Shown piece after piece: positions 5,047 to 62,204 of a stretch of 64,000 nucleotides of DNA. The stretch spans positions 30,888,683-30,952,682 of the forward strand of contig JASXTE010000002.1 of the NCBI GenBank assembly GCA_030280995.1, written 5' to 3'. Numbering within the stretch: position 1 is the first letter of the stretch; each line of letters begins with the position of its first letter. Both the position numbers and the translations under genes were made by a program. The notes under the pieces were generated by a model. It saw only the letters and a list, made by a program, of their open reading frames with translations, had not been told where the DNA came from and did no database searches. Source of the DNA: Hemileia vastatrix. Its lineage: Eukaryota; Basidiomycota; Pucciniomycetes; Pucciniales; Zaghouaniaceae.

Positions 5047-6678
5047 CTATCCAATTAGTCTCTTCATTGACCCATCATCCTTTCCTTCATTATTCTTTTT
5101 CTTTTCTCCTTTTCTTTTTTCCCCTTTACCCTCTTCTTTCCTTCCTTCTAGAAAAACCAGCCGAAAGTGCTCCTGTTTCTTGCTAGGATTCAAGGATACA
5201 CTGCATTTCTTGTGGTGTAGTCTGCTGGAGAGATTGTAGGTGTTGTAATGGTCTGGGACTGGTTTTGAATGTAGTTTTTGGGAGGAAGAAGAGGGGGCTG
5301 GAATTGAATTTTGAAAGGTGTGCTTAATTATCCTTGACATCTTCAAGTGATTTTCAAAGAGTTTCCCTCTCAGGGTCCTTTCAAACTCATTCAATGGTCC
5401 ATGAAGAGTGAAGGCCTTTAGCATGTTGGAGCACATTATCCTTAGGTACTGCTTCATATAAGCATAATCTAGAGTTAACTTAGTTTCAAGGGGTTGGCCA
5501 ACTTCAATAGTAGTATCAAGAGGAGGGGTGCCATCTAAAAAGGAAGAAATTCAGTCAAAAGTTGCTTTTTTGTTCATGAAATTGGATGAAAAATTATGTT
5601 CCCTACAGATTGGTAGCTCTCCAAAACTATATGCTGAAAGAATTTCAACTCTTGAAGGTTTGGAAAGATGTGTGGTGGAAGGAACTGCCAGAAATAAATA
5701 TAGGTTATCTTGGTATTTTTCTAGTGGGTGCTGAGAAGATGAACTACAATGGGACTCTCCTGGGGCCTAGCTAGAGATGGAGAATTGTTGTTGGAACTGT
5801 TTTTGTTATTGTTATTCTGCTCTGTTGGATTGGTTAATGGTATGGGGGAACCAATGTTGTTGGAGGATGGGGCAGTTGAAGGTGATCTTGGGGCTGACTT
5901 TTGTCTTCTGGAAGAATTACTGGAAGATAAGAAGCTGTCAGAGGAGTAGTTGGCAGGCATAGGGGAGGTGTAGTTTTCCCCCTGGATGGAGAAGGTGACT
6001 TTGGTTGTTGAGAATTTTTGGGAGCTATGATTAGTTCTTTGGGAGCTCTGGTAGGTCTTCTTGAAGCTTGAGAATTTTTGGTGTTGTTGGACTTTGAAAA
6101 TTTTGCTTACATTGCTCTGAAAGCATGAGGAGGTTTATGTGCAGAAGTTTGGTTGTTTTTTGGAGAATTTCGGGGGTTTTCGGGCTGTTTTTGAAGGTTT
6201 TAAGCCTGATTTTTGCTTCAAACTGATGTAGGAGGGCCCCTTGAACGCAGTTTAGCAACCTAGGAGCTGAATTTGAAGCATTTGAATTGGTATTTGAAGA
6301 GATAAAAGCAGATGCTTGGGAAGATAGAGGTGGCCACATAGAGAGAGTTCTGGGGACAGATCTCCTGGATCTTCTAGAAGAACCTGAAGACAAAGGAGAT
6401 GAATGGGGACCTAGTACTGGAGATCTGGTAGAGGACCTGGAGATGTATTTGTGAAAAGGTGAAGGTGGAGGTGAAGGATAATTGGGATCTCTATCATATC
6501 TTTTCTTCTTTTAATTGCAAGAGTCACAAGCCCTGTTTTACATTTTTGCCTCTTGAGTTGGAAGAGTAAATGTGCAGGGCCTGCACATGTGAATGCACTT
6601 TTTGCAAGCACAGTCTTAGGGATAAGTGAAGCAAGGAAGGGTTGAGGGGTAAACAGCAGGTGTTTTAAGGTTTGACAT
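5047..6678 (-). pseudogene. Dead antisense zinc-cluster gene, Z2-like
   Basis: From an ATG at 6678 on the - strand the frame reads into CACKKCIHMCRPC, then a spacer of about 15 residues and NRACDSCN with KKKR, interrupted by stops. This is the CX2CX6C...CX2CX6C layout of the gene at 48020-49033; the shared NRAC and the spacer length (14 in Z2) support homology. Ser/Pro-rich sequence follows, as in Z2, and the 3' part (5047-5457) has a helical stretch containing NMLKAF and RTLRGKLF. Stops at the end of the leader, in the spacer and in the second cluster, plus loss of the last Cys to Tyr, make it dead. It is antisense to element A, as Z2 is to M. Confidence 0.65.
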
Positions 6679-7232: not shown

Positions 7233-7640
7233 CTAATTACAGAAAGGTACAAAGAGAGGTGAAAAATGTTCTGAATCAGCCTTGAATTGTTGAATGAAGT
7301 GTCTTATCTTATCAATGTCTAATTGGTCATTGGAAGGAGTGTATTGGAAGTAAGAAAGGAGAAGTTGTTTCTGTTTCTGGGAGTGATGTTGGAATTTTTC
7401 TTTGAAAATGGGTATTGGATTTTGGGGTGGTGGTTATAGGGTCCCTACATTGTCATCATCATCAATGACTGGTGGAGGTAGGGCTGAAGAAAAGGGTCAG
7501 CCTAGTTTGGTATGGAGTAATGAAATCTTACCTTCTGGAAAATCAGGGTGATGAGAGGAAGAAGAGGCTACTGGAGTTACAGGTTCTCTTCAGGGTGAAT
7601 GAAGCTTGTTGATAATTCTTGGGATCACCACACAATATGG
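7233..7640 (-). pseudogene. Dead antisense zinc-cluster gene, Z1-like 3' part
   Basis: On the - strand an intron with GTAAGA donor and CTTCAG acceptor (7531 down to 7484, 48 bases) separates two exon remnants. The downstream exon reads DDDDNVGT, then after a frame change KQLLLSYFQYTPSND and ends with a stop at 7233. It matches the exon-2 protein of the gene at 46181-46873 (DDVGRV, KMLAYFQETPANN) and the intron sits at the equivalent place. The N-terminal zinc cluster is not visible; the copy fades near 7640. The homology is by eye, over about 45 residues. Confidence 0.6.
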
Positions 7641-12342: not shown

Positions 12343-12446
12343 AAAAAAAACAATAAAAAAAAATGTTAAGACATTTTAATTAAAAGTAAGGAGTGAAATA
12401 AAAAAATAAAAATAATTTTTATAATACATATACTGAATAAACAGTA

Positions 12447-18807: not shown

Positions 18808-18819
18808 GGAAGACCCCCA
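18808..18819 (-). other. Possible primer binding site of element B
   Basis: On the - strand TGGGGGTCTTCC begins two to three bases after the 5' LTR. The leading TGG is as expected for pairing with a tRNA CCA end, but I cannot assign the tRNA. Confidence 0.4.
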
Positions 18820-18821
18820 AT

Positions 18822-25027: not shown

Positions 25028-25049
25028 ACATTTTTATCTATCTCTTCTT

Positions 25050-28388: not shown

Positions 28389-28422
28389 TGAACTCTGTTC
28401 TTCGGGCGAAGAACAGAGTTCA
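28389..28422. repeat. Perfect 34-base palindrome inside Harbinger
   Basis: Arms TGAACTCTGTTCTTCG and CGAAGAACAGAGTTCA flank a 2-base centre GG. It ends a purine-rich tract (28180-28388) between the transposase gene and the right end. It may be a protein-binding site or a transcript hairpin; function unknown. Confidence 0.9.
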
Positions 28423-31409: not shown

Positions 31410-31548
31410 CCCAAAAGTATAAGATTAAACCATTAAAATAAAATAAGTGTTTTTTAGATAAGCCTCTTGCAGGCTAAGCACATCCAGTTACCAATTAAGA
31501 TCAATTAAAAGCTATAGATTTTAAAACCCATGTTGGGTACCACCAATG

Positions 31549-36516: not shown

Positions 36517-37639
36517 TGTGGTAGCCTAAAGTTTAGTATGGCACCTAAGTACGTAAATGGAGTTATTACGGAATGCAAGATTGGTGTTATTATTTTTATA
36601 TCAAAGGGTTTTATTCAATTTATTTGAGTTTAAAATATGAAGAAATTGGTCACGAGAAAATGCCTACACAAAAACAATTTATTTTACGGAGAAAACTTAT
36701 TTTTATGGTCTGAAAAATTTATAAGTATCAAGTCAAGTCACTCAAGAACCTTGGGAAATTTTCCCAGAATTTTTACTATTTTTCTTATATTTTAAAATGA
36801 ATTTTAAAGTTTTATAGAAATATTTACGTTTTCAGAAATTACTTAACTTTGATGAATTTCCACGGGGTAATTAGAGCTGCGCAGACTACGAAAATGAGTT
36901 TGGTATGTAAAGGGGAAGTAGCTCTATTATGTGTAATGTTTCTAGATTTTTTATTATAGTTTTTAAGGTTCTAATTGAGTCTGGAAGTCCGGACAGACTC
37001 TGTACGGACTCCGCTTTGACTCCGGACAGACTCCGTACGGGCTCCGGATTGACTCTGGGAGAGCTCTGGAGGGGAAAACTTAGGCACGTGACTAGGAATA
37101 CTTAAGCGCCTCTCAAACTCGAAATTGAGAGGGGGGACACAACATACAGCTTAATCATTAACCACCACGGTCTCATTTTTTATTACTCAACAAATTAAAT
37201 AAATTTGTAATACCCTTATAACTTTATATTTTTATATTTAACATTTTAGAAATACTATTCAACAATTTAAATTACACTTCAATCAGGGTATCTTTAGAAA
37301 GGTCTTCGTCGCTGGGACTTGATTATTGCTGTCTCATAAAAATTCAAATTATTATAAAAACATAAAATTCAATCTTTACAGATCTTTCACTGGTACACCT
37401 TAATTGTTGTTATCAGTATTTCTTTCTCAACAGCCACTTTTACTTTAATCTCAATAAGCGTTAAATATTTTAGAGTTTCATTATTTTCATCAATCAGATC
37501 CAAGTAGATTGGTTAGCTTAGTGATTTAGAATTCCCATTTTGTTATTTTTATTGGAAGGACGGGGTTTTCAGCTAAATCCACATATCTCCTCCGGATTCT
37601 GCTTACAGCAAGGCGACTGTAAGAGTTTACCTTACCATA
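36517..37639 (+). repeat. 5' LTR of P
   Basis: It runs from TGTGGTAGCCTAAAG to CTTACCATA and is homologous, inverted, to the LTRs at 44903-46057 and 57243-58430. A GC-rich minisatellite of about 11-base units (GACTCCGTACG type) lies near 36978-37075. Confidence 0.92.
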
Positions 37640-37641
37640 GT

Positions 37642-40681: not shown

Positions 40682-41003
40682 CCTCCAGAAAGAGGTTAAA
40701 CTGCAAGTATCTCCTTCTATTTTGGACCTCCAGCAAGAGGGTAAACTGCAAAAATCACATCAAAATCCAATTAAAAATCTCAGTATAATTAAAACACAAA
40801 AAAATAATTTTTGTGAAAATGTTATTCCAGACCTCCAGCAAGAGGTTAAACTGAAATTATCTCCTTCTATTTTGGACCTCCAGCAAGAGGGTAAACTGCA
40901 AATATCACATCAAAATCTGATTAAAAATCTCAGTATAATTAAAACACAAAAAAATAATTTTTGTGAAAATTCAATTCCGGTTCTCCAGCAAGAGGTTAAA
41001 CTT
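40682..41003 (+). repeat. Coding stem-loop repeats, CCTC-CAGCAA-GAGG-TTAAACTG
   Basis: Five copies start at 40682, 40727, 40832, 40877 and 40982. Two sit in a larger duplicated block (40700-40820 and 40850-40970) that includes CTCAGTATAATTAAAACAC. M keeps only two copies (54074 and 54180 regions), so copy number varies between insertions. Confidence 0.88.
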
Positions 41004-42982
41004 CCAACTTTCTTTACAGGCGATTTACTGTTGGATAAGGGAAGCAAAGGTGTTGGAAAATCTGTTTATAAATTAGAAGAGGGAAAGGAGAAAAGGGTAA
41101 AATTTAATAATGAAATAAAATATTTTTCTAATTTTTCTTATTCCAATTCTGGCGATGAAGAAGATTCATTTGATGAAATTTTTAATGGCGATACAAAAGA
41201 AAATGTTTTACCTCAAGTTTATTTAGATGTGGACGCAGCCAAATATAAGAAGGTAGCAAATAAAGTTTGACCTATTAATGAACCGCTACCTGATGAATTA
41301 AATCCACCCTTGAGAAGACCAAGGTTATCAAGAGATCCTTATGAAAGTCCCTTGGTAAAGAATCCGCCTGAATTTTCTGAGACGTCAAGAATCACTTTTG
41401 AGAGACTGGGTGTTGTTAATTTTGGACCTGATTTTTGGTTGTCTGGAGAAGAGAAGAAGTTGCTGTTGGATGTGATGGTCAAGCGAGAGAAGGCCATTGC
41501 TTTTGTAGAAGAGGAGAGGGGTGTGTTGAAGCATTCCTATGGGGAGCCTTACAAGATTCCTGTGGTATTTCATGAACCGTGGCAGCAGAAACTGATTCCT
41601 ATACCAGCTGCATTAAAAGAAGCCTATATTGAAGTTGTCAGAGAACAGATACGCACTGGACTGTATGAGCAATCAACGTCAAGTTATTCTAGTCCGGTAT
41701 TTTGTATCAAGAAACCAAATGGCAAGCTTAGAGTTGTTCATGATCTTAGGGAATTAAATAGGGTTACAATAAAGGATGCTGGGATACCGCCTAGTGCTGA
41801 GGAGTTTGTTGAAGCGTTTTCAGGGAGATTGTGTTATGGATTGGGAGATATTATGGGTGGATATGATGAGAGAGAGTTACATCCGGACTCAAGGCCTCTC
41901 ACTACATTCGATACGCCACTTGGACGTTTACAGTTAACAAGATTACCTCATGGAGCAACAAATTCGGTTGCAGTTTATCAAGCTCAGATGGCTTGGATCC
42001 TTCAAGATGAAATTCCACAATAAGCTGGAATCTTTATAGATGATGGAGGAATTAAGGGACCAACAACCGACTATGATAACCAGGTGTTGGAAGAGAATCC
42101 CGGGATACGCAAATTCATTTGGGAGTTTGCAATTACTTTAGAAAGAATCTTGTTTCGAATTGAAGAGGCTGGTTTAACTATTTCAGGTTCAAAATTTTCA
42201 TGTTGTGTGCCAGCCTTAGAAATATTAGGCCATGTGGTATGTAGAGAGGGTAGGATTATGTCCAAGAAGAAAGTTAACAAAATTCAGTCCTGGCCAAGAC
42301 CCAAGAATACGACCGAAGTTAGAGGGTTTTTAGGCGTTTGCGTATATGTTAGAATGTTTATTAAGGACTTTTCTTCATTGGCAGCTCCATTGAGACAGTT
42401 AACGAGAAAGGATGCAGACTGGGAGTGGGATGAAGAGTGTGAGAAGGCGTTTGTGAAGTTGAAGGAGGTTGTAGGGAAGGATTTAGTCCTGCACAATTTG
42501 GATTATGGAAAAGATGCTGGTAGAATTTATTTAGCAGTTGATTCAAGTCAGGTTGCAGCTGGGGCGGTTTTGTCTCAGATGGATAAAGCTGGTTACATCA
42601 GGCCAGTTAGGTATGAATCTGTAGTATTTACTGAGGTCGAATCAAGATATTCTCAACCAAAATTGGAGTTATGTGGTGTGGCCAAAATACTGAAGAAACT
42701 TCAGCATATTTTGTGGGGGCAACATTTTGAGTTACAAGTGGATGCGAAATCGTTAATCCAGATGATTAATTCCCCAAGTTTACCGAACGCACCAATGAAG
42801 AGATGGGTAGCTTTTATTCAACATTTTTTGTTCGATTTAGTTCATAAGCCTGGCAAAACTTTTACTATTCCAGATGGTTTATCAAGAAGACCACCCACTG
42901 AAGAAGATTCAGACTCAGAAGAGTTCGATGAAGATATACCTATTATCAAAGCCAGCACTAAAGGAGCTGAAGACTTTCCATA

Positions 42983-43062
42983 CCTCCCCCATGAGGTTAA
43001 ACTGGCAGGACTATTGTGTTTAGATTATGGTGATGATGACCTCCACCAAGAGGATAAACTGG
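42983..43062 (+). repeat. Two coding stem-loop copies in Pol
   Basis: CCTC-CCCCAT-GAGG-TTAAACTGG (42983-43005) and CCTC-CACCAA-GAGG-ATAAACTGG (43040-43062). They encode LPHEVKLAG and DLHQEDKLE. M (52025-52106) and M2 (63853-63930) keep both. Confidence 0.85.
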
Positions 43063-43151
43063 AAAATAGTTTTTATGTTAATAAAGGTGTTGGATGGAGC
43101 AGTATTAAAGAAGAGGGTAGCGGCCGATCAAGTGAAGTGGTACTATCCTAG

Positions 43152-44249
43152 AGGCACCAGGAGTGCCGAAGTCTTCCTCCCCAATGAGGATAAACTATGA
43201 CATTTACAAAATTTTATGGATTCCTCCACAATGTGGATAAACTATGATGTTTATAAAAACCTTATCAACCTCCGCAATGAGGATAAACTATGACATTTAT
43301 GAAATTATATGGATACCTCCGCAACGAGGATAAACTATGAAATTTTTTAAATTTTATGGGACCTCCACAATGAGGATAAACTATGATGTTTATAAAAATC
43401 TTATCGACCTCCGCAACGAGGATAAACTATCTTCTTTTTTTTATCAAAATACTTTACTATCGTTACATTGTATATGGTCAACGAAACTATGATGAAACTT
43501 AACGAAATTCAAGAAGAACTTCTTTGAAATTTTCAAAAACTTACAATTCTTTAAATATGGGTGAAGATAGTGTTGGAAAATTTTTAAAATTTATTGGAAG
43601 AAGTGTTTACAGGGGAACCTTCTTAATTTAATATTGGCAAGTGTGGGGGTAATTGATGGGCTGGCTGCTCTATACACAATTACCCCATAATGTTCGTTTC
43701 CAAAATTTTCCCTGTTTCTAGTTGAATCCTGGCTTTGTCTTTTAATTATAGGAAGTCCACTAAGACTATAAACTGGAACAAATCAAGAGACACCGCTCTC
43801 AACGCCGGATTCAAGATTTTTTTTAATTAATTTTGTTTTTGATTTTTTTTATGATAGATTGTGATTTCTTTTCTTTAATATATATTATGAATTATTGTAA
43901 AGGTGATGCTCACTGGTGGTCTCTAATCATTTTTATAAATTGGAGGGAGCCCACCCAGTGATCATCATTATAAAAATTATCTTCTAAAAACTTTCATTTA
44001 TTTTCTTTTCTTTTCAATTTCTCAAAATTGTGTAACCACATCAAGTTGCACTTGGATGTGGGTATGATGTCGAGGGTACGGCTCATAAAATGGCCGGGGG
44101 GCATCTTTTAAAATTTTATTTTAAAAAATTTTTTTATTACTTTTTTATCTTTCTTTTCACATTCGTTACTCTTTCTTTAAAAATTAAATTTTAACTTTTA
44201 TTTCAAACTATCTTTTTTAATAAAAAAATCTTTTATTTTAAATGTTAAA

Positions 44250-44292
<43 letters not shown>

Positions 44293-44875
44293 TAACTAAA
44301 AATATAAAATAAAAAAATAAAAATAAATAAAATAAAATAAAATAATAAAAAAAATAAAAGTAAAAAAAATAAAAAAATAAAAAAATAAAAAATAAATAAA
44401 TAAATAAATAAAAAATTAAATAAAATAATAAAATAAAAAAAAAATAAAAAATTAATTAATTAAATCAAAATTATTATTATATTTCTTAGTTTTATTTTTC
44501 AGTCTTCATTCTTTTTAGTTTATTCATTTAGTTTAGACAGGAAACAGGGTCTAAGGGAGCTCAAAACCTATGGGATTTTACTTCAAGACATCTGTTAGTC
44601 CTCCAAGACTTTAAACTGGCTACCGTTAAAGACGTTCTTTAAGGTTTTTATATGTATTTTGGATCTGTTAGCCCTCCAAGACTTTAAACTGGCTACTGTT
44701 CAAGACTTTCCTTAAGGGTTTTATACAAATTATGGAGCTGTTAGTCCTCCAAGACTTTAAACTGGCTAATTTTCAAGACTGTCATTAAAGATTTTATATT
44801 GGAGCTGTTAGTCCTTCAAGACTTTAAACTGAATTTCAAGGATGATCAAGATTTTATGGATATTTTCGGAGATGG
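43152..44875 (+). other. 3' UTR of P with serial RNA-like stem-loops
   Basis: Six copies of CCTC-CGCAAT-GAGG-ATAAACTATG lie at 43176, 43223, 43269, 43316, 43362 and 43408. They are followed by the GGGGTAATTG/CAATTACCCC hairpin (43646-43686), an AGTC/GACT copy (43755), a TCACTGGTGG/CCACCCAGTGA hairpin (43909-43965), a CCACATC hairpin (44036-44062), an A/T microsatellite (44245-44465) and four AGTC-CTCCAA-GACT-TTAAACTGG copies (44597, 44670, 44743, 44810). No ORF. Confidence 0.8.
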
Positions 44876-44902
44876 TATGGTAAGGTAAACTCTTACAGTC
44901 GC
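44876..44902 (-). repeat. M2 3' LTR, end separated by insertion of M
   Basis: These 27 bases (starting TATGGTAAGGTAAAC) equal the terminus of the family LTR and are repeated at once by the LTR of M. The rest of this LTR resumes at 58431. TCGC at 44899-44902 and 58431-58434 is the target duplicate of M. Confidence 0.8.
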
Positions 44903-46057
44903 TATGGTAAGGTAAACTCTTACAGTCGCCTTGCTGTAAGCAGAATCCGGAGGAGATATGTGGATTTAGCTGAAAACCCCGTCCTTCCAATAAAAATAAC
45001 AAAGTAGGTGTTCTAAATCACTAAGCTAACCAATCTACTTAGATCTGATTGATAAAAATAATGAAAACTCTAAAATAATTAACGCTTATTGAGATTAAAT
45101 GATCGTGGCTGTTGATAAAGAAATACTGATAACAACAATTAAGGTGTACCAGTGAAAGATCTGAAAAGATTGACTTTTATGTTTTTATAATATTTTTAAT
45201 TTTTATGAGACAGCAATAATCAAGTCCCAGCGACGAAGACCTTTCTAAAGATACCCTGTTTGAAGTGTTATTTTAATAGTTGAGTAGTATTTCTAAAATG
45301 TTATATATAAAAATATAAATTTATAAGGGTATTACAATTTATTTAATTTGTTGAGTAATAAAAAAGGAGACCGTGGTGGTTAAAGATTAAGCTGTATGTT
45401 GTGTCCCCCCTCTCAATTTCGAGTTTGAGAGTCGCTTAAGTATTCCTAGTCACGTGCCTAAGTTTTCCCCTCCAGAGCTCTTCCAGAGTCAATCCGGAGC
45501 CCGTACGGAGTCCGTACGGAGTCAAAGCGGAGTCCGTACAGAGTCCGTAAGGAGTCGAAACGGAGTCCGTACGGAGTCCGTCCGGACTTCCGGACTCAAT
45601 TTAGAACCTTAAAACTATAATAAAAAATCTAGAAAAATTACACATAATAGAACTACTTCTCCTTTACATACCAAACTAATTTTCGTAGTCTGCGCAGCTC
45701 TAATTACCCCGTGAAAATTCATCAAAGTTAAGTAATTTTTGAAAACGTAAATATTTCTATAAAACTTTAAAATTCATTTAAAAATATAAGAAAAATAGTA
45801 AAAATTCTGGGAAAATTTCCCAAGGTTCTTGAGTGACTCGACTTAATACTTATAAATTTTTCAGTCCGTAAAAATAAGTTTTCTCCGTAAAATAAATTGT
45901 TTTCGTGTAGGCATTCGCTCGTGACCAATTTCTTCATATTTAAAACTCAAATAAATTAAATAAAACCCCTTTTTAAAAAAATAATAACGCCAATCTTGCA
46001 CGCCGTAATAACTCCATTTACATATTTAGGTGCCGTACTAAACTTTAGGCTACCACA
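44903..46057 (-). repeat. 3' LTR of M
   Basis: 1155 bases, ending CTACCACA on the + strand. The minisatellite near 45500-45590 has three 11-base units fewer than the 5' LTR. Confidence 0.93.
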
Positions 46058-46068
46058 TCCTCCCTCCA
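46058..46068 (-). other. Polypurine tract of M
   Basis: On the - strand GGAGGGAGGA precedes the LTR start TGTGGTAG; it is identical in M2 (59517-59527). Confidence 0.75.
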
Positions 46069-46180
46069 ATCGAGAATGTCCCCATTCTTAAAACTTTGCA
46101 TAAGTGGTCGAACACAATATTCATCTTTAACCTACAACCACCATCTTCTTTAATCAACTATAAAATTCATCTTCATCAAT

Positions 46181-46873
46181 ATGTCTTCCAAAGAACTTGT
46201 CGCTCCATGTGAACTCTGCGCTCGATATCAGGTACCTTGTTTAATGTCCAACCCTAATCTTCCTGGCAGAACAGCTTGCGACTTATGCCGTGTGAAAAAA
46301 GTCAAATGCAACCGGCCAATAGGTCCTTCTAAAACAAACGTATATTTAGGACCAGCAGCTCTCCCTGATCCCTCAACTTCTAAAAAGCAATCCAAAATTC
46401 CTGTCTTCTTAAAACGAATAAGATCAAAAACAGCTTCAAAAGTTCAATCTTCATCAACGGATCCCGGCCTAATTTTGCCTTCACAAGATCCTAATCCCAT
46501 AACGCCAGTACCCCCAACTAACTTTGCTGAGACTATGTTTCCTGGCTCTAAATGTAAGACCCTATTTATCTTACTAAAAAAAACTTTTAATCAAAATTGA
46601 CTAAACCTATGACTTAATAACATATTTGAACTTCTAGCTGTCGAAATAACCAACACTGATGATGTTGGTAGAGTGAAGACGGACTATATCAATCATTACC
46701 CAAATTTTCATCGCTATCTTTTTCTTGACTTTACTAATGAGTTGAAACGAAAAATGCTGGCCTATTTTCAAGAAACTCCAGCTAATAACCATGAAGACCT
46801 CATGAAAAGAAGAATTTTAATGCAAAGCTTTGATAATGATGTTGAACAATTTCAAAGAAATTATCTTTTCTAA
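46181..46873 (+). CDS. Z1: zinc-cluster protein gene, antisense inside M
   Basis: Two exons, 46181-46553 and 46638-46873, with an 84-base GT-AG intron (GTAAGA donor, CTTCTAG acceptor), give about 202 residues. The N-terminus has six Cys in Zn2Cys6 spacing, CX2CX6C-X12-CX2CX6C (residues 10-43), the second half CDLCRVKKVKCNRP being basic as in fungal DNA-binding clusters. A Pro/Ser/Lys-rich linker follows and a C-terminal helical part (DDVGRV, LKRKMLAYFQETPANN, FQRNYLF) shared with Z2. The gene starts 123 bases from the 3' LTR and reads towards pol, opposite to gag-pol. An intron on this strand survives retrotransposition because the genomic RNA carries its complement. Probable nuclear DNA- or RNA-binding protein; function unknown. 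Confidence 0.78.
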
Positions 46874-47457
46874 CAGTATAACTTGATAAAATTTTGTTTT
46901 TGCTTGGTCTTCTTAAACTTTCAACATAAATGATGTTTTCTTTCTTCTCTGGCTTGATATAACATAAAATAAAATAAATCTTGTGATGATTCCACTACTG
47001 AGAGCAAGGTTTGAATCCCTTCAGACTCCCATATACCAGTCTTCCTTCTTGTCACAGCATTGAGAGAGTGGATCTTCCTATGAGCCGAATACTCCTGATT
47101 CCAACCTCATAGGGCCCCCCACTGAGCCGAATTCTATGATTCCAATCTCGCCATAAGGTCCTCCAAGCTTCACACCAAAAAAAGTGGCCTAACTATGAGG
47201 CACTAAAAAAAATCATTCCCTAAAATCCAACTACCATCCTAACTTCTGATTCCTTCATCACAATTTTCAAACTTTGCTATACAGCAAACCCATAAAATAC
47301 TTTTGCCAGGCTTCCAATAATAATTTTAACTTTAGACCATGTCAAAGCGCCACAAATTTCACCTAATTAACCATTATGCTTTCTTTAGCATCATTACCAC
47401 CTAAAATTTTAGCCTCCTAAAGCTATCAGCACCCAATTCCAGAAATAATTGAATAAC
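46874..47457. other. Spacer between Z1 and the stem-loop cluster
   Basis: No gene. It is conserved in M2 (59590-60178). An imperfect repeat around TGAGCCGAATACTCCTGATT and TGAGCCGAATTCTATGATT (47090-47160) can fold. This zone may include the Z1 3' end; no clear polyadenylation signal was chosen. Confidence 0.5.
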
Positions 47458-47925
47458 CAGTTTAGAGTCTTAGTGGACAGTGATAAATTAAAAGATTGAA
47501 TTGAGTTATCCAAACAAGATTGACATTCCAATTTAAAGTCTTGGTAGACCAAACATATAATCGATTGCCAGTTTATGGTCTTGGTGGACCAAAGATCGTT
47601 TAAGTGCATAAATATCTTGATATATTCCTAAGTAAGGCCTAGGCTTGACCAAAGATTGAATAAATTTGATAATCCAGTTTAATGTCATAGTGGACCAAAC
47701 ATTTGATCGACAAATAATCCAGTATAAGGCCATAGTGGTCCAATGAATGTTGAATTATCCTGCAGATATTAATTTTCCAGTTTAAAGTCATAGTGGACTA
47801 AACAATGAATGAACTACCAGTTTAAAGTCATGGTGGACCAAACATTTAATCGATAAGAAATCCAGTTTAAGGTCATGGTGGACCCAACAGCTTGATAATA
47901 GTCCAGTTTAAGGTCTTGGTGGACC
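47458..47925 (-). repeat. Cluster of nine stem-loops between Z1 and Z2
   Basis: On the element sense (-) strand the copies read GGTC-CACCAA-GACC-ATAAACTGG and variants. Stems seen include GGTC/GACC, AGTC/GACT and GTC/GAC, that is, compensated changes. Loops are CACCAA, CACCAT, CACTAA or CACTAT. Copy starts on the + strand are near 47458, 47528, 47570, 47671, 47721, 47776, 47817, 47860 and 47903. Confidence 0.9.
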
Positions 47926-48019
47926 TAACAACTTCTCTATCCTTGAACCCAGATTCTGCCACCAGCTTTCTTCATCCTAGTTTCAAGTTTTCTTCTTCAA
48001 AAAAATATCTCCTAACAAG

Positions 48020-49033
48020 ATGAAACCTTCTGACTTCATTGCTTCAGCTGATCAATCTTGCAAATACTGTGCCTTCACCCATAGGGAATGTATCTTCTCT
48101 TTTAACTGGCAAAAGCACACTTATAACAGGGCCTGTTTAGCCTGCTATGAGAAGAAAAGAAAATGTTCTGGCTTGAACTGTGGTTCTTTCCCCATCACTG
48201 CTACTAGCTTCGCCGCCTTCTGCAAACCTCTTCCTTCTTCTTCACCTTCTACTCCACCACCTATTCCATCAACCTCTAAAGATCCCATACCTTTTTCTCC
48301 ATCAGCCTATTTAAACCTTTCTCCATCACCTAATCCTCTGGGTCCTTCTCTCCAATCTAGACTTGCTGCTACTCCCCCAAGAACTCTTGCTGCTCCCAAG
48401 GCCATGCTTCAACCTTCTAACAATTCTTCTCCTTCTTCCAACATCTTGAAGCACAAAAGGTCCTATAATAGCCAGCAGTCTTCATCTTCTCTTGTATCAT
48501 CCAAAAGGCCCAGAACATCTACTTCAAACACCAAATCCAACACCAGTCCTCCTCATCTATCAAAAATAAAAAATCCTTTCCTAAACATAAAAAATCTCAC
48601 TCCATTACCAAGTAAGCCGTTTATCTATGATCATGATAGTGTTGACACAGGTTAGTTGTCTCTTTTTATTTTCTTAATCTTCAGGTTTTAATTTGCTGAT
48701 ATTTTAATTTGATAAGCGTCCACCGGTTCTCCAATTTCATATTCAGCTTATGAACTACCAGAACCTAATCCAAGCTTCCCTAGAGTTCCCATTCACCTAG
48801 TGTCTGAAAAGCTTTTTGCTAATTTTAATAACCTTATCGCTTATTTCCAACGATACCCGCCCTCTGATAGATCAGAATCTTGGATGAGAGAGCAACTGTT
48901 AAGAGACCTTTTCAAAATAGCCAACTGGCTTCAACACTATCGTGACCGTGAAATAAGATTCGAATCCCAGGAAATCGATCAAGGTCCTTCTAAATTTTCT
49001 AATTTCGATTCTTCAAAAGATAACAACCCTTGA
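48020..49033 (+). CDS. Z2: second zinc-cluster protein gene, antisense inside M
   Basis: Exons 48020-48650 and 48747-49033 with a 96-base GT-AG intron (GTTAGT donor, ATTCAG acceptor) give about 305 residues. The N-terminus has CKYCAFTHREC and CLACYEKKRKC, CX2CX6C-X14-CX2CX6C. A long Ser/Pro-rich, probably disordered linker follows with a basic patch (SSKRPRTS). The C-terminal helical part (SEKLFANFNNLIAYFQRYPP, then LLRDLFKIANWLQHYRDREI) resembles Z1, and the intron lies at the same place between linker and C-terminal part. So Z1 and Z2 are paralogues. The upstream region is pyrimidine-rich, as in many fungal promoters. Both frames are open, whereas gag-pol of M has three stops. Function unknown. 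Confidence 0.78.
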
Positions 49034-50374
49034 TGGTGTTCTTCCTGGTATGTAGCTTTCTTGAATAATGTTTGAAAAATAAAATATAAACATCTAAACT
49101 ACCTAAAACTAAAATACCTTTTATTATTATTTTTTTTTTTTATTATTTTTTTTTTTTTTTTTTATTTTATTTTATTTATTTTTTTTTTATTTTTATTTTT
49201 TATTTTTTATTTTTTATTATTTTTTTATTATTTTTTTTTTTTTTTTTATTTTTTTTTATTTTTTTTTTATTTTTATTTTCTTTTTTTTTTATTTTTATTA
49301 CCATTTAAAATAAAAGATTTTTTTAAAAAAAGATAGTTTTGAAATAAAAGTTAAAATTTAATTTTTAAAGAAAGATAAACGAATGTGAAAAGAAGGATAA
49401 AAAAGTAATAAAAAATTTCAAAATAAAATTTTAAAAGATGCCCCCCGGCCATTTGATGAGCCGTACCCTCGACATCATACCCACATCCAAGTGCAACTTG
49501 ATGTGGTTACACAATTTTGAGAAATTGAAAGAAAAGAAAATAAATGAAAGTTTTTAGAAGATAATTTTTATAATGATGATCACTGGGTGGGCTCCCTCCA
49601 ATTTATAAAAATGATTAGAGACCACCAGTGAGCATCACCTTTACAATAATTCATAATATATATTAAAGAAAAGAAATCACAATCTAAAAAAAATCAGAAA
49701 CAAAATAAGAAAATCTTGAATCCGGCGTTGAGAGCGGTGTCTCTTGATTCGTTCCAGTTTATAGTCTTAGTGGACTTCCTAAAATTAAAAGACAAAGCCA
49801 GGATTCAACTAGAAACAGGGAAAATTTTGGAAACGAACATTATGGGGTAATTGTGTATAGAGCAGCCAGCCCATCAATTACCCCCACACTTGCCAATATT
49901 AAATTAAGAAGGTTCCCCTGTGAACACTTCTTCCAATAAATTTTAAAATTTTTCCAACACTATCTTCACCCATATTTTAAGAATTTTAAATTTTTGAAAA
50001 TTTCAAAGAAGGTCTTCTTGCATTTCGTTATGTTTCATCACAGTTTCGTTGCCCATATGCAGTGTAACGATAGTAAATTATTTTTGATAAAAATAAGAAG
50101 ATAGTTTATACTCGTTGCGGAGGAATCCATAAAATTTCGTGGATATCATAGTTTATCCTCATTGCGGAGGAACCATAAAATTTAAGAAGTTTCATAGTTT
50201 ATCCTCATTGCAGAGGAATTCGTAAAGTTTCATAGTTTATCCTCATTGCGGAGGAATAAATTTAATAAAAAAAATCATTAAAATTGTAGTTTATCCTCAT
50301 TTCGGAGTTGATAAAATTTAAGAAATTTCATAGTTTATCCTCATTGCGGAGGAATCCATAAAGTTTCATTGATA
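49034..50374 (-). other. 3' UTR of M between pol and Z2
   Basis: No gene. It contains a T/A microsatellite (49120-49300), the CCACATC hairpin (49481-49507), the TCACTGG hairpin (near 49585-49640), an AGTC/GACT copy (49754-49776), the GGGGTAATTG hairpin (49844-49884) and seven GAGG-type stem-loops from 50103 to 50401, the last overlapping the pol stop. Confidence 0.75.
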
Positions 50375-53300
50375 TCATAGTTTATCCTCATTGCGGAGGA
50401 AGACTTCGGCACTCCTGGTGCCTCTAGGATAGAACCGTTTCACTTGATCGGCCGCTACCCTCTTCTTCAATACTACTCCATCCAACTCTTCTAGCACATA
50501 TGAACCGCCGGAAACTTGCTCCTTGATTTTATACGGTCCATTCCACCTATCTGCAAACATCTTTCCCCACTGACTTTCAAAACTCCTATTATACACCAGG
50601 ACCATATCACCTGGGTTCAAAGGTTTCCTTAATCGATGTGCCAACCGCTCATCCCAATATCTGACTGATTGATTTCGGATCTTCATCATCCGCGAATATG
50701 CCTTTTCTAAATATTCTTCTTTCTTTTCTAGCTGCATCATTCTTGCACACAATAATTCTTCAGTAGTTTTGACCATGTCCCAGTCAACTCCAAGATATGA
50801 TTCAGCTTCTAAATCAACCGGTAAAACTGCTTTCTGTCCAAAAACAAGTTCATAAGGTGAAAATCCGGTCGTCCTTTTGGCAGTGATTCGATCAGCAAAT
50901 AAAACTAAAGGTAAATAGTGCCTCCATTTTTCGGCACTTGTCCCACACATTTTAACTAAAGCATCCTTGATAACTTGATGCCCTCTTTCAACCATGCCTT
51001 CAGCTTCAGGATAATATAGGGTTGCTACCCTAACCTTTGATCCAACTTTCAATACGGCCTCTTTAAACTCTGTCCCAAATTCAGGACCTCCATCTACCGT
51101 CACCAACTTCATCACCCCATACCTATATACCCAATTATTCAAAAAAAATTCTGCCACATTTTTGGCAGTTAAATTAATAAGAGGCGCTGCCTCTACCCAA
51201 CCAGATAAATCATCTCTGGCCACAATTAAATATTTATACCGTCCCTCTTTTATATGAACGGCATCTAAACTAACTCTCCCAAAGAGCGTATATTCACCGG
51301 TCGCGCGTCCAGGTTCTTTTGGCCTTAAATAACTTCGTCTTTGACATTCTTCGCATGACTGAACCCACTGTTTAACAGCCATCTTCATGCCAGGCCACCA
51401 AAATCGATCAGAAATTCTTCTAAATGTTTCTCCAACGCCTCTATGCCCGAGATCTTCATGCAGTGATTTCAAAACTAATTCTTGCCCCTTCTGTTGAGTT
51501 ATAACTACTTGAGGATTTGGATACCTCCTCCTCATTAAACGTCGACCAGATAGGTAAAACGTAGATGACTTCCTCTTGATAGCCACCCATTCATCGTCTT
51601 CACAATCTTCTGGCCTCTCTAAAGTCAACAAATATTTGACTAACAAAAAATAAAAACCAGTCTGACCCCAGACTTCATCTTGAAAATCGATTAATATAAC
51701 ATCAATAGGGACTTCTCTATCACCAATATCACCTGCACATGAATGAGCCAATAATCGTTGACCCCTAAATAAATCTTTAATCGAGCTATGTCGATGTTTT
51801 TCTTCTGAACCTTTGGATCCTTCGTAAACCGTATTCGAAAATACCTCTTTCTCTTTATCCACCTTTTTATTCTCTAATTCTCCAACATATACACCATTCC
51901 TTAATTTACTACTATCCCACACTACCAATCCATTTTCCTCTACATACACCACATCTTCTTCTACCTCCTCTCTGCCGAATTTATCTACACCTTTATTAAC
52001 ATCTTTTTTAACATAAAAACTATTTTCCCGTTTATCCTCTTGGTGGAGGTCATCAACACCATAATCTAAACACATTAGTCCTGCCAGTTTAACCTCATGG
52101 GGGAGGTATGGAAAGTCTTCGGCTCCTTTAGTGCTGGCTTTGATAATAGGTATATCTTCATCGAACTCTTCTGAGTCTGAATCTTCTTCAGTGGGTGGTC
52201 TCCTTGATAAACCATCTGGCATAGTAAAAGTTTTGCCAGGCTTATGAACTAAATCAAACGAAAAATGTTGAATAAAAGCTACCCATCTCGTCATGGGTGC
52301 ATTCGGTAAACTTGGGGAATTAATCATCTGGATTAACGATTTCACATCCACTTGCAACTCAAAATGTTGCCCCCACAAAATATGCTGAATTTTCTTCAGT
52401 ATTTTCGCCACACCACATAATTCCAATTTTGGTTGAGAATATCTTGATTCGACCTCAGTAAATACTACAGATTCATACCTAACTGGCCTGATGTAACCAG
52501 CTTTATCCATCTGAGACAAGACTGCCCCAGCTGCCACCTGACTTGAATCTACTGCTAAATAAATTCTACCAGCATCTTTTCCATAATCCAACTTGTGCAG
52601 GACTAAATCCTTCCCCACAACCTCCTTCAACTTCACAAACGCCTTCTCACACTCTTCATCCCACTCCCAGTCTGCATCCTTTCTCGTTAACCGTCTCAAT
52701 GGAGCTGCCAATGAAGAAAAGTCCTTGATAAACATTCTAACATATACACAAACGCCTAAAAACCCTCTAACTTCGGTCGTACTCTTGGGTCTTGGCCAGG
52801 ACTGAATTTTGTTAACTTTCTTCTTGGACATAATCCTACCCTCTCTACATACCACATGGCCTAATATTTCTAAGGCTGGCACACAACATGAAAATTTTGA
52901 ACCTGAAATAGTTAAACCAGCCTCTTCAATTCGAAACAAGATTCTTTCTAAAGTAATTGCAAACTCCCAAATGAATTTGCGTATCCCGGGATTCTCTTCC
53001 AACACCTGGTTATCATAGTCGGTTGTTGGTCCCTTAATTCCTCCATCATCTATAAAGATTCCAGCATATTGTGGAATTTCATCTTGAAGGATCCAAGCCA
53101 TCTGAGCTTGATAAACTGCAACCGAATTTGTTGCTCCTTGAGGTAATCTTGTTAACTGTAAACGTCCTAGTGGCGTATCAAATGTAGTGAGTGGCCTTGA
53201 GTCCGGATGTAACTCTCTCTCATCATATCCACCCATAATATCTCCTAAACCATAACACACTCTCCCTGAAAACGCTTCAACAAACTCCTCAGCACTAGGC

Positions 53301-53662
53301 GGTATCCCAGCATCCTTTATTGTAACCCTATTTAATTCCCTAAGATCATGAACAACTCTAAGCTTGCCATTCGGTTTCATGATACAAAATACAGGACTAG
53401 AATAACTTGACGTTGATTGCTCATACAGTCCAGTGCGTATCCGTTCTCTGACAACTTCAATATAGGCTTCTTTTAATGCAGCCGGAATAGGAATCGGTTT
53501 CTGCTGCCACGGTTCATGACATACCACAGGAATCTTGTAAGGCTCCCCATAGGAATGCTTCAACACACCCCTCTCCTCTTCTTCAAAAGCAATGGCCTTC
53601 TCTCGCTTGACCATCACATCCAACAACAACTTCTTCTCTTCTCCAGACAACCAACCATCAGG
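50375..53662 (-). pseudogene. ORF2 main part of M: RT, RNase H, integrase
   Basis: 1091 codons are open. RT: VVHDLRELNRVT, LPQGATNSVAVYQ and the catalytic FIDDGG (about residue 200). RNase H: IYLAVDSSQVAAGAV and DGLSRRPP. Integrase: HEDLGHRG with CEEC, Asp in SLDAVHIKE, Asp in VTVDGGPEFG, Glu in EAEGMVERG, then the GPY/F module NGPYKIKEQ. There is no chromodomain. Upstream a TGA at 53660-53662 (P has GGA) separates this from the ORF2 start, so the normal frameshift product would be cut before RT. The C-terminus FLRNEDKL is itself encoded by a stem-loop copy. Confidence 0.9.
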
Positions 53663-54475
53663 TCAAAAATTAACAACACCCAGTCTCTCAAAAGTGATTC
53701 TTGACGTCTCAGAAAATTCAGGTGGATTCTTTACCAAGGGACTTTCATAAGGATCTCTTGATAACCTTGGTCTTCTCAAAGGTGGATTTAATTCAGCAGG
53801 TAGCGGCTCATTAATAGGTCGAACTTTATTTGCTACTTTCTTATATTTGGCTGCGTCCACATCTAAATTAACTTGAGGTAAAACATCGCCATTAAAACTC
53901 TCATCAAATGAATCTTTTTCATCGTCAGAATCGCAATAAGAAAAATTAGAAAAATATTTTATTTCGTTTTTAAATTTTACCCTTTTCTCCTTTCCCTCGT
54001 CTAATTTATAAACAGATTTTCCAACACCTTTACTTCCCTTATCCAACAGTAAATCACCCGTAAAGAAAGTCGGCAGTTTAACCTCTTGCTGGAGGACCAG
54101 AATTGAATTTTCACAAAAATTATTTTTTTGAGTTTTAATTATACTGAGATTTTTAATTGGATTTTGATGAGATAATTGCAGTTTAACCTCTTGCTGGAGG
54201 TCCATAAACATACCCTTCCAATTTTTATCCAACCTAATTTGGCCCATTTTGCCTTTTTCACCGTTTTTAAATTTAATAGAAAAACCGGGTAAATCCAATA
54301 AACATATAGAAAAGTCCAAAACGTATTTGCACTCCAAAGTAATATTAACAGAAAATAATTGAGAATCCACTTGAATTATCTCCAAGTGAGCTGACCTATT
54401 GCAATCCGGGATCTCATTATGAGGAGAGATTACAACATTAGAGCGATCAGCCCCTGCTACCCCAAAAAATGAGGG
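53663..54475 (-). pseudogene. ORF2 linker of M
   Basis: Same frame as the RT part but ended by the TGA after LGVVNF. It reads MEIIQVDSQLFSVNITLECK and contains two LQQEVKL-type stem-loop copies (54074-54098 and 54178-54202), against five in P. No enzyme motif; role unknown. Confidence 0.8.
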
Positions 54476-57066
54476 CTTTCATCCTTTTCCAACAAACATA
54501 ATTCACCAGAAGCCATCCGTTTTATATGCCGCTTCTTGGTGCAAACACAACACTGGCACAGAGTAGTAATCCCTGGCCGTGTTTCCCAACCTTCATCTCC
54601 AGGAGGCGCTAACCGCATATGTAACCTCCGCATATCTTCACCAGTGATTTCCAAACTAATCCCCATGCCAGCTTGATACCCTATCCTGGCCTCAAAATCC
54701 ATCAAAAAAGGACCCCCAAGAACAGTTTTGACTGCTCCTCTGGCCACATAAAAGTGAACCTTACCAACAGATCCACCAATGCCTAACCTGACATGCTCAG
54801 CTGTACCCATCAGCTCTGTTGCATGCCCTCCAATACCTCTGAGGTTTCCCCCAGTTCCACTTTTAATTGGCAAGCCTATACTCGTCGCTTGCTCCAATGA
54901 AATTAAATTAATTTGAGACCCTGAATCGACCAAGGCCTTTACTTCTTTACCATTTAGAGTTACCACCAGGTAACCCAGGGGAGCGGAAAAATGTGTATCT
55001 ACATCTTCCCCAAACTTTTCAGCGTTTTCACAAATATATTCCACCTCTCCAGTGGAAACCCGACGCCTCGTCAAATGCTTCTTTTGCTTTTCAGCAAGCG
55101 CCGGACTAATCGTAAATAACTCCCCCAAAGATAAGGGAATCTGAAGTTGATTCACCCTATTCAAAACTGCGTCCATCGCATTAGCTTGACCAGAAACTAC
55201 TGGCCGCTCATACTGGACCTTTGATTTAACAACCTTGGCCCTGGGTACCTCTTGAGGTCCAACCGAGCCATCTTCACCCCCCATTATAACATCTTCACTT
55301 TCTATAACCCTAACTCCGTCACCAGCTTCTTGCACTAATCCTGATCCATCGCTAGTCCTTCTTACACCCTCCATTGGGATGGGACCGCTAAAACTTGGTC
55401 TGGGTAGAGACGCCAACGGTACGTCCTCCTCAGAATCCGAATCATCCTCTGGCATAGGCTCACCATTTAAATCAAACTTGCCATAACTAGGGGGCCCCAT
55501 ATCAGCAATCCCCTTCTGCATTTTATATAATTCGTCCTTAGAGTAAGGGTTCAATTTGTTGGCGGCAGTTTGAGCACTAGAAATCTTGTCCTTAGAGTAA
55601 GGGTTCACTTTGTTATTGGCCTTGCCAGGATTAGCCCTCAATTGGCTCTGAATGCTACTTTTCGCCTTAGTAGCAGCTGCTCTTCTAGCAGCATTAACAT
55701 CGTATTCGCCAGCCATACAGCTACCCTCCACCTGGGCAACCGTCGCCAGCTCTAAACCACCAAAAGAAGTAGAAAATGTGGCTTTACTGACCTCTTTCTC
55801 CTTGCCCTTGTCAGCTTTACCACCATTACCATTACCATTTTTGCCACTCTTGGCATTAACATCTTCATCCGTCACCTCTTCAAATCTGGCTCTCCTTTCA
55901 GCCGTTAAACTTCTTCTGACCAAATCAGAAGGAGACTGTCCATCACTGGGCTTGATGAACGAACCATCGGGAAATTTATAAACTTTACCATTAAATAAAA
56001 CTTGCCCAGCATCCATATCCTAATCAAGAGCAAAACAAACTGTTGCTCTGTGCCCTCTCCTATTACAATAGGAGCACACCTTTGGCTCATCATAGCCACC
56101 TCTATAATTACTACCACCATTCCCACCATTTCTCCCATTACCTGGGAAGCGGTTACCATTATTATTGCCATTATAATTTCAACGTTCATAACCTCTAGAC
56201 TGATAAGAAGTCGACGTCGACAAAGAAGCGATTGGGGCCTTATTGGCCTTCTGGGTTTCTTGAACAAATATTTTTAATTGTTTAGTTAAATCGGCCAGGT
56301 GATTGACCATCTTATTGTCTACATTGCCCTCAACTTTAGCAGCCGGTAATCCCATTTGTGCCTTCTTGGCCTCCTGGGCTTTGACCATAATATTGTTATT
56401 TTCGGCCAAAACTTCGCTAACCTTGCTAACATATTGAGTGCATGACTCTTGATATTTGTCCAACGCCAATAACTTGAGATGGGCCTGAATGTTCTCTTTG
56501 ATAACCTCCAGAGCCGGCAGTTTCTGCTCACCATTAGGCAGTTCCTTCATCAAATCTTTTCTTGAAAGATCCTTCAAGACGTCCATACGAATATCCCTGC
56601 TGCATGCTGACCAAAACAAATCTTTTGCTTGGTTCTCATGCACTAACTCGTCCACCAGTATGAGATATTCCACCACTTCATCAAACTGAACACAGAGCTT
56701 TTTGAAGTCAGCCATAGAAGAAACTCCACCTTTTGCTTGCCAGTCTCCAACAATTTTATTGAGGTCCATCATAGTAAACCTAACACCCCATCTATCAACC
56801 ATAGCTTTAGAAAGCTTAACCCAATCCTTGTCCTTGAACGCCTGCATAGCAATAACCTCTTTTTCCACCTCCCTATCGGCAATAAAAAATCTAACTTGCT
56901 TCACCATATCCACATGGGAAGCACCATCAACAGCAGCAGCAGCTTCATACCTGCTAATGAACCATTTAACCTCCTCCCCATCAAACTTTGGGCCATCCCA
57001 AGAAACAATTCTAACTGAGGGAGTAAGAGGGTTAGAAGATCCAGAAGCAACAGCAGAAGAAGACAT
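54457..57066 (-). pseudogene. ORF1 Gag-protease of M with two stops
   Basis: It corresponds codon for codon to ORF1 of P. TGA at 56179-56181 replaces CGA (P reads LRNYNG), a CpG transition, and TAG at 56020-56022 replaces AAG. Both lie around the zinc knuckle, so only the N-terminal half of Gag can be made. The protease motif LVDSGSQINL near 54930 and GTGGNLRG are intact. Confidence 0.9.
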
Positions 57067-57222
57067 CCCAATAAGTAATGAAAAGCGTTAACAATCGATA
57101 AAATAACAAGCCTCTTCCAGGCCAATAACAAAAATCCAATTAGAGTTCCAGAAAATAAGCCTCTTGCAGGCTAATAACGTTCTTGATCCAAGTAAGTCTT
57201 TAAAGAAAGCTAGAGAAATCGA

Positions 57223-57240
57223 ACCCCACGTTGGGCGCCA
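57223..57240 (-). other. Primer binding site of M, lysine tRNA
   Basis: Identical to that of P (TGGCGCCCAACGTGGGGT on the - strand), two bases from the LTR. Confidence 0.88.
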
Positions 57241-57242
57241 AC

Positions 57243-58430
57243 TATGGTAAGGTAAACTCTTACAGTCGCCTTGCTGTAAGCAGAATCCGGAGGAGATATG
57301 TGGATTTAGCTGAAAACCCCGTCCTTCCAATAAAAATAACAAAGTAGGTGTTCTAAATCACTAAGCTAACCAATCTACTTAGATCTGATTGATAAAAATA
57401 ATGAAAACTCTAAAATAATTAACGCTTATTGAGATTAAATGATCGTGGCTGTTGATAAAGAAATACTGATAACAACAATTAAGGTGTACCAGTGAAAGAT
57501 CTGAAAAGATTGACTTTTATGTTTTTATAATATTTTTAATTTTTATGAGACAGCAATAATCAAGTCCCAGCGACGAAGACCTTTCTAAAGATACCCTGTT
57601 TGAAGTGTTATTTTAATAGTTGAGTAGTATTTCTAAAATGTTATATATAAAAATATAAATTTATAAGGGTATTACAATTTATTTAATTTGTTGAGTAATA
57701 AAAAAGGAGACCGTGGTGGTTAAAGATTAAGCTGTATGTTGTGTCCCCCCTCTCAATTTCGAGTTTGAGAGTCGCTTAAGTATTCCTAGTCACGTGCCTA
57801 AGTTTTCCCCTCCAGAGCTCTTCCAGAGTCAATCCGGAGCCCGTACGGAGTCGGTACGGAGCCGGAACGGAGTCCGTACGGAGTCCGTACGGAGTCAAAG
57901 CGGAGTCCGTACAGAGTCCGTACGGAGTCGAAACGGAGTCCGTACGGAGTCCGTCCGGACTTCCGGACTCAATTTAGAACCTTAAAACTATAATAAAAAA
58001 TCTAGAAAAATTACACATAATAGAACTACTTCCCCTTTACATACCAAACTAATTTTAGTAGTCTGCGCAGCTCTAATTACCCCGTGAAAATTCATCAAAG
58101 TTAAGTAATTTTTGAAAACGTAAATATTTCTATAAAACTTTAAAATTCATTTAAAAATATAAAAAAAATAGTAAAAATTCTGGGAAAATTTCCCAAGGTT
58201 CTTGAGTGACTCGACTTAATACTTATAAATTTTTCAGTCCGTAAAAATAAGTTTTCTCCGTAAAATAAATTGTTTTCGTGTAGGCATTCGCTCGTGACCA
58301 ATTTCTTCATATTTAAAACTCAAATAAATTAAATAAAACCCCTTTTTAAAAAAATAATAACGCCAATCTTGCACGCCGTAATAACTCCATTTACATATTT
58401 AGGTGCCGTACTAAACTTTAGGCTACCACA
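57243..58430 (-). repeat. 5' LTR of M
   Basis: 1188 bases. The minisatellite at about 57830-57970 carries three more 11-base CGGAGTCCGTA-type units than the 3' LTR. A + strand ORF across it (57794-57985) is a translation of the repeat, not a gene. Confidence 0.93.
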
Positions 58431-59516
58431 TCGCCTTTCTGTAAGCAGAATCCGGAGGAGATATGTGGATTTAGCTGAAAACCCCGTCCTTCCAATAAAA
58501 ATAACAAAATGGGAATTCTAAATCACTAAGCTAACCAATCTACTTGGATCTGATTGATAAAAATAATGAAACTCTAAAATAATTAACGCTTATTGAGATT
58601 TAAAGAAATTGGCTGTTGAGAAAGAAATACTGATAACAACAATTAAGGTGTACCAGTGAAAGATCTGAAAAGATTGACTTTTATGTTTTTATAATAATTT
58701 GAATTTTTATGAGACAGCAATAATCAAGTCTCAGCGATGAAGACCTTTCTAAAGATACCCTGTATGAAGTGTGATTTAAATTGTTGAGTAGTATTTCTAA
58801 AATGTTATATATAAAATATAAAGTTATAAGGGTATTACAAATTTATTTAATTTGTTGAGTAATAAAAAATGAGACCGTGGTGGTCAATGATTAAGCTGTA
58901 TGATGTATCCCCCTCTCAATTTCGAGTTTGAGAAGCGCTTAAGTATTCCTAGTTACGTGCCTAAGTTTTCCCCTCCAAAGCTCTCCCAGAGTCAATCCGG
59001 AGCCCATACGGAGTCCGTACAGAGCCGGAACAGAGTCCGTCCGGACTTCCGGACTCAATTAGAACCTTAAAACTATAATAAAAAATCTAGAAAAATTACA
59101 CATAATAGAGCTACTTCCCCTTTACATACCAAACTAATTTTCGTAGTCTGCGCAGCTCTAATTACCCCGTGAAAATTCATCAAAGTTAAGTAATTTCTGA
59201 AAACAAAAATATTTCTATAAAACTTTAAAATTCATTTAAAAATATAAGAAAGATTGTAAAAATTCTGGGAAAATTTCCCAAGGTTCTTGAGTGACTTGAC
59301 TTGATACTTATAAATTTTTCAGACCGTAAAAATAAGTTTTCTCCGTAAAATAAATTGTTTTTGTGTAGGCATTCGCTCGTGACCAATTTCTTCATATTTA
59401 AAACTCAAATAAATTAAATAAAACCCTTTTATATAAAAAATAATAACGCCAATCTTGCACGCCATAATAACTCCATGTAAATATTTAGGTGCCGTACTAA
59501 ACTTTAGGCTACCACA
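58431..59516 (-). repeat. 3' LTR of M2, main part
   Basis: It continues the 27 bases at 44876-44902 after the M insertion. The minisatellite is short here, near 58990-59050. Confidence 0.88.
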
Positions 59517-60178
59517 TCCTCCCTCCAATCGAGAATGTCCCCATTCTTATAACTTTGCATAAGTGGTTGAGCAATTCCAAAAGAATTATCTTTTCTAATA
59601 AAATAATTTGATAAATTTGTTTTAGCTGGTCTTCTTTTAAATCTTTTATAATAAAAACGTTCTTTCTTCTTCTCTGGCTTGATATAACATAAAATAATAT
59701 AAATCTTGTGATGATTCCACTACGAGAGCAAGGTTTGAATCCCTTCAGACTCCCATTAACCAGTCTTCCTTCTTGTCACAGCATTGAGAGAGTGGATCTT
59801 CCTATGAGCCGAATACTCCTGATTCCAACCTCATAGGGCCCCCCACTGAGCCGAATTCTATGATTCCAATCTCGCCATAAGGTCCTCCAAGCTTCACACC
59901 AAAAATGGCCTAACACTGAGGCACTAAAAAAAATCATTCCCTAAAATCCAACTACCATCCTAACTTCTGATTCCTTCATCACAATTTTCAAACTTTGCTA
60001 TACAGCAAACCCATAAAATACTTTTGCCAGGCTTCCAATAATAATTTCAACTTTAGACCTTGTTAAAGCGCCACAAATTTCACCTAATTAACCATTATGC
60101 TTTAATTAGCATCATCACCACCTAAAATTTTAACCTCCTAAAGCTTATCAGCACCCAATTCCAGAAATAATTGAAAAA

Positions 60179-60956
60179 CCAGTTTTGAGTCTTAGTGGAC
60201 AGTGATAAATTAAAAGATTGATTTGAGTTATCCAAACAAGATTGACATTCCAGTTTAAAGTCTTGGTGGACCAAACATATAATCAATTTCCAGTTTATGG
60301 TCTTGGTGGACCAAAGATCGTTTAGGTGCATAAATAACTTGATATATTCCTAAGTAAGGCCTAGGCTTGACCAAAGATTGAATAAATTTGATAATCCAGT
60401 TTAATGTCATAGTGGACCAAACATTTGATTGACAAGTAATCCAGTATAAGGCCATAGTGGACCAATGAATGTTGAATTATCCTGCAGATATTAATTTTCC
60501 AGTTTAAAGTCATAGTGGACTAAAACAATGAATGAACTACCAGTTTAAAGTCATGGTGGACCAAACATTTGATTGATAAGAAATCCAGTTTAAGGTCATG
60601 GTGGACCCAACAGCTTGATAACAGTCCAGTTTAAGTTCTTGGTGGACCTAACATTTGATCTATATGAAAAGAAATCCGTCTCCAAAAATATCCATAAAAT
60701 CTTGATTATCTTTGAAATTCAGTTTAAAGTCTTGAAGGACTAACAGCTCCAATATAAAATCTTTAATGACAGTCTTGAAAATTAGCCAGTTTAAAGTCTT
60801 GGAGGACTAACAGCTCCCAAATTTGTATAAAACCCTTAAGGAAAGTCTTGAACAGTAGCCAGTTTAAAGTCTTGGAGGACTAACAGCTCCAAAATACGCA
60901 TAAAAAACCTTAAAGAACGTCTTGAACAGTAGCCAGTTTAAAGTCTTGGAGGACTA
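60179..60956 (-). repeat. Stem-loop clusters of M2
   Basis: 60179-60649 holds nine copies matching 47458-47925 of M one for one. 60720-60956 holds four AGTC-CTCCAA-GACT-TTAAACTGG copies matching P 44597-44831. Both are on the element sense (-) strand. Confidence 0.88.
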
Positions 60957-62204
60957 AAGATGTCTTGAAGTAAAATCCCATAGGTTTTGAGTTCCTTTAG
61001 ACCCTGTTTCCTGTCTAAACTAAATGAATAAAACTAAAAAAATAGAATGAAGACTGAAAAATAAAACTAAGAAATATAAAATATTTTTGATTTAATTAAT
61101 TAATTTTTTTTTTATTTTATTATTTTATTTTTTATTTTTATTTATTATTTTATTTTATTTTTATTTTTATTTTTATTTATTATTTTTTATTTATTTATTT
61201 ATTTTTTATTTTATTTTTTTTTATAATTTAATTTTTTTTTTCTTAAGTTTAAATAAAAGATTTTTAAAAAGATAGGTTTGAAATAAAAGTTAAATTTTAA
61301 TTTTTAAATAAAGATAAATGAATGTGAAAAGAAAGATAAAAAAATTAATAATAATAAAAAAATTTCAAAATAAAATTTTTAAAAGATGCCCCCCGGCCAT
61401 TTGATGAGCCGTACCCTCGACATCATACCCACATCCAAGTGCAACTTGATGTGGTTACACAATTTTTGAGAAATTGAAAAGAAAAGAAAATAAATGAAAG
61501 TTTTTAGATGATAATTTTTATAATGATGATCACTGGGTGGGCTCCCTCCAATTTATAAAAATGATTAGAGACCACCAGTGAGCATCACCTTTACAATAAT
61601 TCATAATATATATTTAAGAAAAGAAATCACAATCTAACATAAAAAAATCAAAAACAAAATAAAATAAAAAAAATCTTGAATCCGGCGTTGAGAGCGGTGT
61701 CTCTTGATTCGTTCCACTTTATAGTCTTAGTGGACTTCCTATAATTAAAAGACAAAGCCAGGATTCAACTAGAAACAGGGAAAATTTTGGAAACGAACAT
61801 TATGGGGTAATTGTGTATAGAGCAGCCAGCCCATCAATTACCCCCACACTTGCCAATATTAAATTAAGAAGGTTCCCCTGTGAACACTTCTTCCAATAAA
61901 TTTTAAAAATTTTCCAACACTATCTTCACCCATATTTTAAGAATTTTAAATTTTGAAAATTTTCATTGAAGGTTTTCTCGCATTTCGTTATGTTTCATCA
62001 CAGTTTCATCGCCCATATGCAGTGTAACGATAGTAAAGTATTTTTTGATAAAAATAAGAAGATAGTTTATACTCGTTGCGGAGGAATCCATAAAATTTTG
62101 TAGATATCATAGTTTATCCTTGTTGCGGAGGTATAAATTTAATAAAAGTCATTAAAATTGTAGTTTATCCTCATTTCAGAGTTATCCATAAAATTTCATA
62201 AATG
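60957..62204 (-). other. Remaining 3' UTR of M2
   Basis: No gene. A T/A microsatellite (61095-61250), the CCACATC hairpin (61427-61453), the TCACTGG hairpin, an AGTC/GACT copy (61709-61731), the GGGGTAATTG hairpin (61804-61844) and four GAGG-type stem-loops (62064-62232). Confidence 0.75.

Follow-up and report, generated by a model that had tools for sequence, protein, structure and literature searches.

Antisense intron-containing zinc-cluster genes and a candidate DNA target in a Ty3 retrotransposon of Hemileia vastatrix

The locus

Why would a retrotransposon carry two intron-containing genes on the strand opposite its own gag-pol? The question is raised by 64,000 nucleotides of the rust fungus Hemileia vastatrix (assembly GCA_030280995.1, contig JASXTE010000002.1, forward-strand positions 30,888,683 to 30,952,682; hereafter the window), an AT-rich stretch (GC 0.337) packed with long terminal repeat (LTR) elements. 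The original prediction placed an antisense pair of intron-bearing zinc-cluster genes between pol and the 3' LTR of one such element, and the present analysis confirms this observation as a whole. The host element, copy B, lies on the minus strand at 44877-58432. Its 3' LTR spans 44877..46059 (terminal TG end at ~46057) and its 5' LTR 57242..58432, the latter adjoining a sequence at ~57220-57241 that we take to be primer-binding-site-like. Between the LTRs, gag-pol (50375..57087, minus strand) encodes protease, reverse transcriptase (RT), RNase H and then integrase, the order of a Ty3 element, and is interrupted by three in-frame stops, as had been predicted. The integrase core rve scores 25.8 bits, below its cut-off of 32.6, while the H2C2 domain is clear. 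In copies A and B the gag-protease and RT frames overlap at a matching place (40380-40425 and 54457-54478), so the change of frame looks programmed and normal rather than the result of damage.

The zinc-cluster genes, Z1 and Z2, are small and lie on the plus strand at the 3' end of copy B, between pol and the 3' LTR, as expected of open reading frames (ORFs) of the aORF-3R type. The cysteine-motif segment of Z1 (46181..46553) reads CX2CX6C-X12-CX2CX6C and matches Pfam Zn_clus (E 6.2e-5). It is followed by an intron (46554..46637), which relative D shares at the identical place and phase, and a 3' segment (46638..46873) supported by a homologue in D and by an AlphaFold model with helices at 6-19, 23-45 and 51-75 (mean predicted local distance difference test score, pLDDT, 77). 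Z2 has the same organization, with a cysteine-motif segment (48020..48650; CX2CX6C-X14-CX2CX6C), an intron (48651..48746) and a 3' segment (48747..49033); the interval between the genes, 46874..48019, is listed on the minus strand. The predicted exact double CX2CX6C is thus present in both genes, with spacers X12 and X14. The fungal Zn2Cys6 domain (Pfam PF00172) has six cysteines in the consensus CX2CX6C-X5-12-CX2CX6-8C. The Z genes have the six cysteines, and they do not show the Zn2Cys6 order of basic half first and second half after; likewise, the best Protein Data Bank sequence match of the Z1 segment is Ppr1 with its halves swapped (E 0.0047). The term "circularly permuted" was not found among the matches listed from the open-licence literature. 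The four Z exon queries gave no match to the TRP28 domain (PF04195) at E <= 1.

Conservation among copies and relatives

The antisense arrangement is common to copy B and relative D, a diverged element on the plus strand from position 1 whose pol, aligned in its best frame, shares 65% identity across 246 codons, and a remnant is present in copy C. The Z1 homologue in D (7263..7583, minus strand; tblastn E 5e-6) has an intron, and its amino acid identity is 0.35 over 68 codons, with differences by codon position of 0.50/0.34/0.71. None of 300 and none of 2000 shuffles reached the match between 46638..46873 and D 7466-7263. The Z2 homologue (5280..6615, minus strand) gave tblastn E 5e-5 once low-complexity filtering was switched off, and E 3e-4 with the N-terminal piece alone; for 48020..48650 against D 6615-6499, 0 of 300 shuffles reached the match, and 0 of 2000 even with the cysteines fixed.

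CGG/CCG arrays in the LTRs

CGG triplets are the usual target of Zn2Cys6 proteins, among them the activators Gal4, Ppr1 and Leu3, with which the Z genes would share a six-cysteine binuclear cluster. Arrays of CGG/CCG triplets, listed without strand, occur in the 3' LTR of copy B (45494..45595; 17 triplets in 102 bp, 11-bp unit), its 5' LTR (57834..57970; 25 in 137 bp), the 3' LTR of copy C (58996..59055; 11 in 60 bp, irregularly spaced) and the 5' LTR of copy A (36985..37050; 10 in 66 bp, CGG steps of 11, 11, 11 and 22). The difference between the two LTRs of copy B comes to 33 gap positions, the length of three 11-bp units. Within the window such arrays are specific to the LTRs of the Z-bearing family, and from their sequence they are a plausible candidate target of the Z proteins.

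Possible roles of the gene pair

Anatomy, age, loss and array are matters of observation. Because the LTRs hold a dense array of the triplets that such proteins usually bind, the element may carry its own control switch. In this scheme, which is moderately favoured over the others, an antisense promoter would drive the Z genes, their introns would be spliced, the Z proteins would bind the LTR arrays and the element would be regulated by its own products. The original prediction had read the pair as a module of element-borne regulators, a reading that is supported in part; promoter, splicing, binding and regulation are steps that we infer.

Alternatively, the genes could be real and antisense, with products whose site of action is not the LTR but the host (where they might counter silencing, for instance) or the replication cycle. 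This appears rather unlikely, as the arrays are confined in the window to LTRs of the Z family and match the usual Zn2Cys6 target. That captured host zinc-cluster genes merely hitchhike without function is improbable. An antisense RNA could instead be the active part, for example as double-stranded RNA against the genomic RNA, with the ORFs secondary; excerpts of an earlier paper suggest this for plant antisense ORFs (PMC7264820), and here it is considered very improbable. Fungal elements of complex nested structure that carry additional domains are described (excerpts of PMC3248453), yet a chance origin of the ORFs or the nested insertion of foreign DNA is scarcely credible, since the chance tests stand against them, D has the Z arrangement and C a remnant.

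If the control-switch reading is true, this would be a fungal transposon family with its own transcription factors, in the genomes of rust fungi, which such elements have enormously inflated (PMC12210899). Since one and the same element combines a putative regulator with a plausible target on the DNA, the role of antisense accessory genes can be tested directly, and introns on the antisense strand would serve as a clean natural sign that this strand is expressed.

Surrounding elements and repeats

Inspection by eye revealed no target-site duplication flanking copy B. The 5' LTR of B abuts the truncated 3' LTR of copy C (58431-58432) and its 3' LTR adjoins copy A, which is truncated; the site therefore appears rearranged. 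Copy A (plus strand; 5' LTR 36517-37640) is without integrase and truncated at ~44875. Copy C (minus strand; 3' LTR 58431 to ~59518) runs off the window, and beyond this LTR lie segments at 59566..59595 (plus strand, read by eye) and 60653..61084 (minus strand). Element E (minus strand, ~22977-32374) is decayed, its match to B ending at 22977 (B 52479), before integrase; ORFs inside it (26665-27975) resemble a Harbinger-type transposase, and their first part has no Pfam match at E 0.01. Element F (11153-19996) is a separate Ty3 element with a chromodomain and two LTRs 97.8% identical.

Between pol and the antisense genes, D has ~1.35 kb composed almost entirely of TTTTTA-type repeat (2450-3830), with shorter T/A-rich tracts at this position in B and A. 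A conserved non-coding module follows pol (49754-49939 in B; 1382-1832 in D), ~75% identical and tandem-duplicated in D. Covarying hairpin repeats are dispersed over coding and non-coding parts of the genome-sense strand of copies A-D (40682-44833, plus; 47567-54200, minus; 60249-63931, minus; 1550-7128, plus), with one in E. They consist of a 4-bp stem (CCTC/GAGG, AGTC/GACT or GGTC/GACC), a 6-nt loop, mostly C-N-N-N-A-N, and then WTAAACT; Rfam gave no match, and they are possibly an RNA signal.

Outside the window, among the best 120 of 230 pol matches, the named ones are mostly from Puccinia striiformis, with P. coronata, Austropuccinia psidii and Phenoliferia also present. These are 48-73% identical (best local alignment covering 32-48% of the query), the more distant Tilletia and Candolleomyces 41-44%, and unnamed metagenome proteins up to 77%; two with a bacterial metagenome-assembled genome name (71-72%) presumably reflect contamination. 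On pol matches alone, a rust or a closely related fungus would be the probable host.

Comparison with known systems

Antisense accessory genes occur in several plant and fungal LTR families, with no function demonstrated for them (PMC7264820). Excerpts on the plant Retand Ty3 elements (PMC11963269) describe a similarly long region between pol and 3' LTR with antisense ORFs, a probable DNA-binding domain and tandem repeats, but the domain is TRP28 (97% of clusters) rather than a zinc cluster, and the words "intron" and "zinc" are both absent from the main text. Gene23 of maize Grande is likewise antisense between pol and 3' LTR, with its own promoter and a nuclear protein according to excerpts of PMC7264820, but it is a plant gene and the word "zinc" is absent from that paper. 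In yeast, the zinc-cluster protein Tea1/Ibf1 binds the Ty1 enhancer (excerpts of PMC10968565 and PMC4619828), which gives zinc-cluster contact with an LTR element a precedent, although Tea1/Ibf1 is host-encoded whereas the Z genes are element-borne. Among the open-licence papers listed by our searches, none described an LTR element that carries zinc-cluster genes. The fungal LTR element Boty of Botrytis/Sclerotinia has an antisense gene, brtn, between pol and 3' LTR (excerpts of PMC7264820 and PMC8365987), a single named gene, compared by description, in contrast to the pair here. The architecture is therefore of a known kind, while the zinc-cluster type, the pairing, the introns and the LTR array together make this a new form of it.
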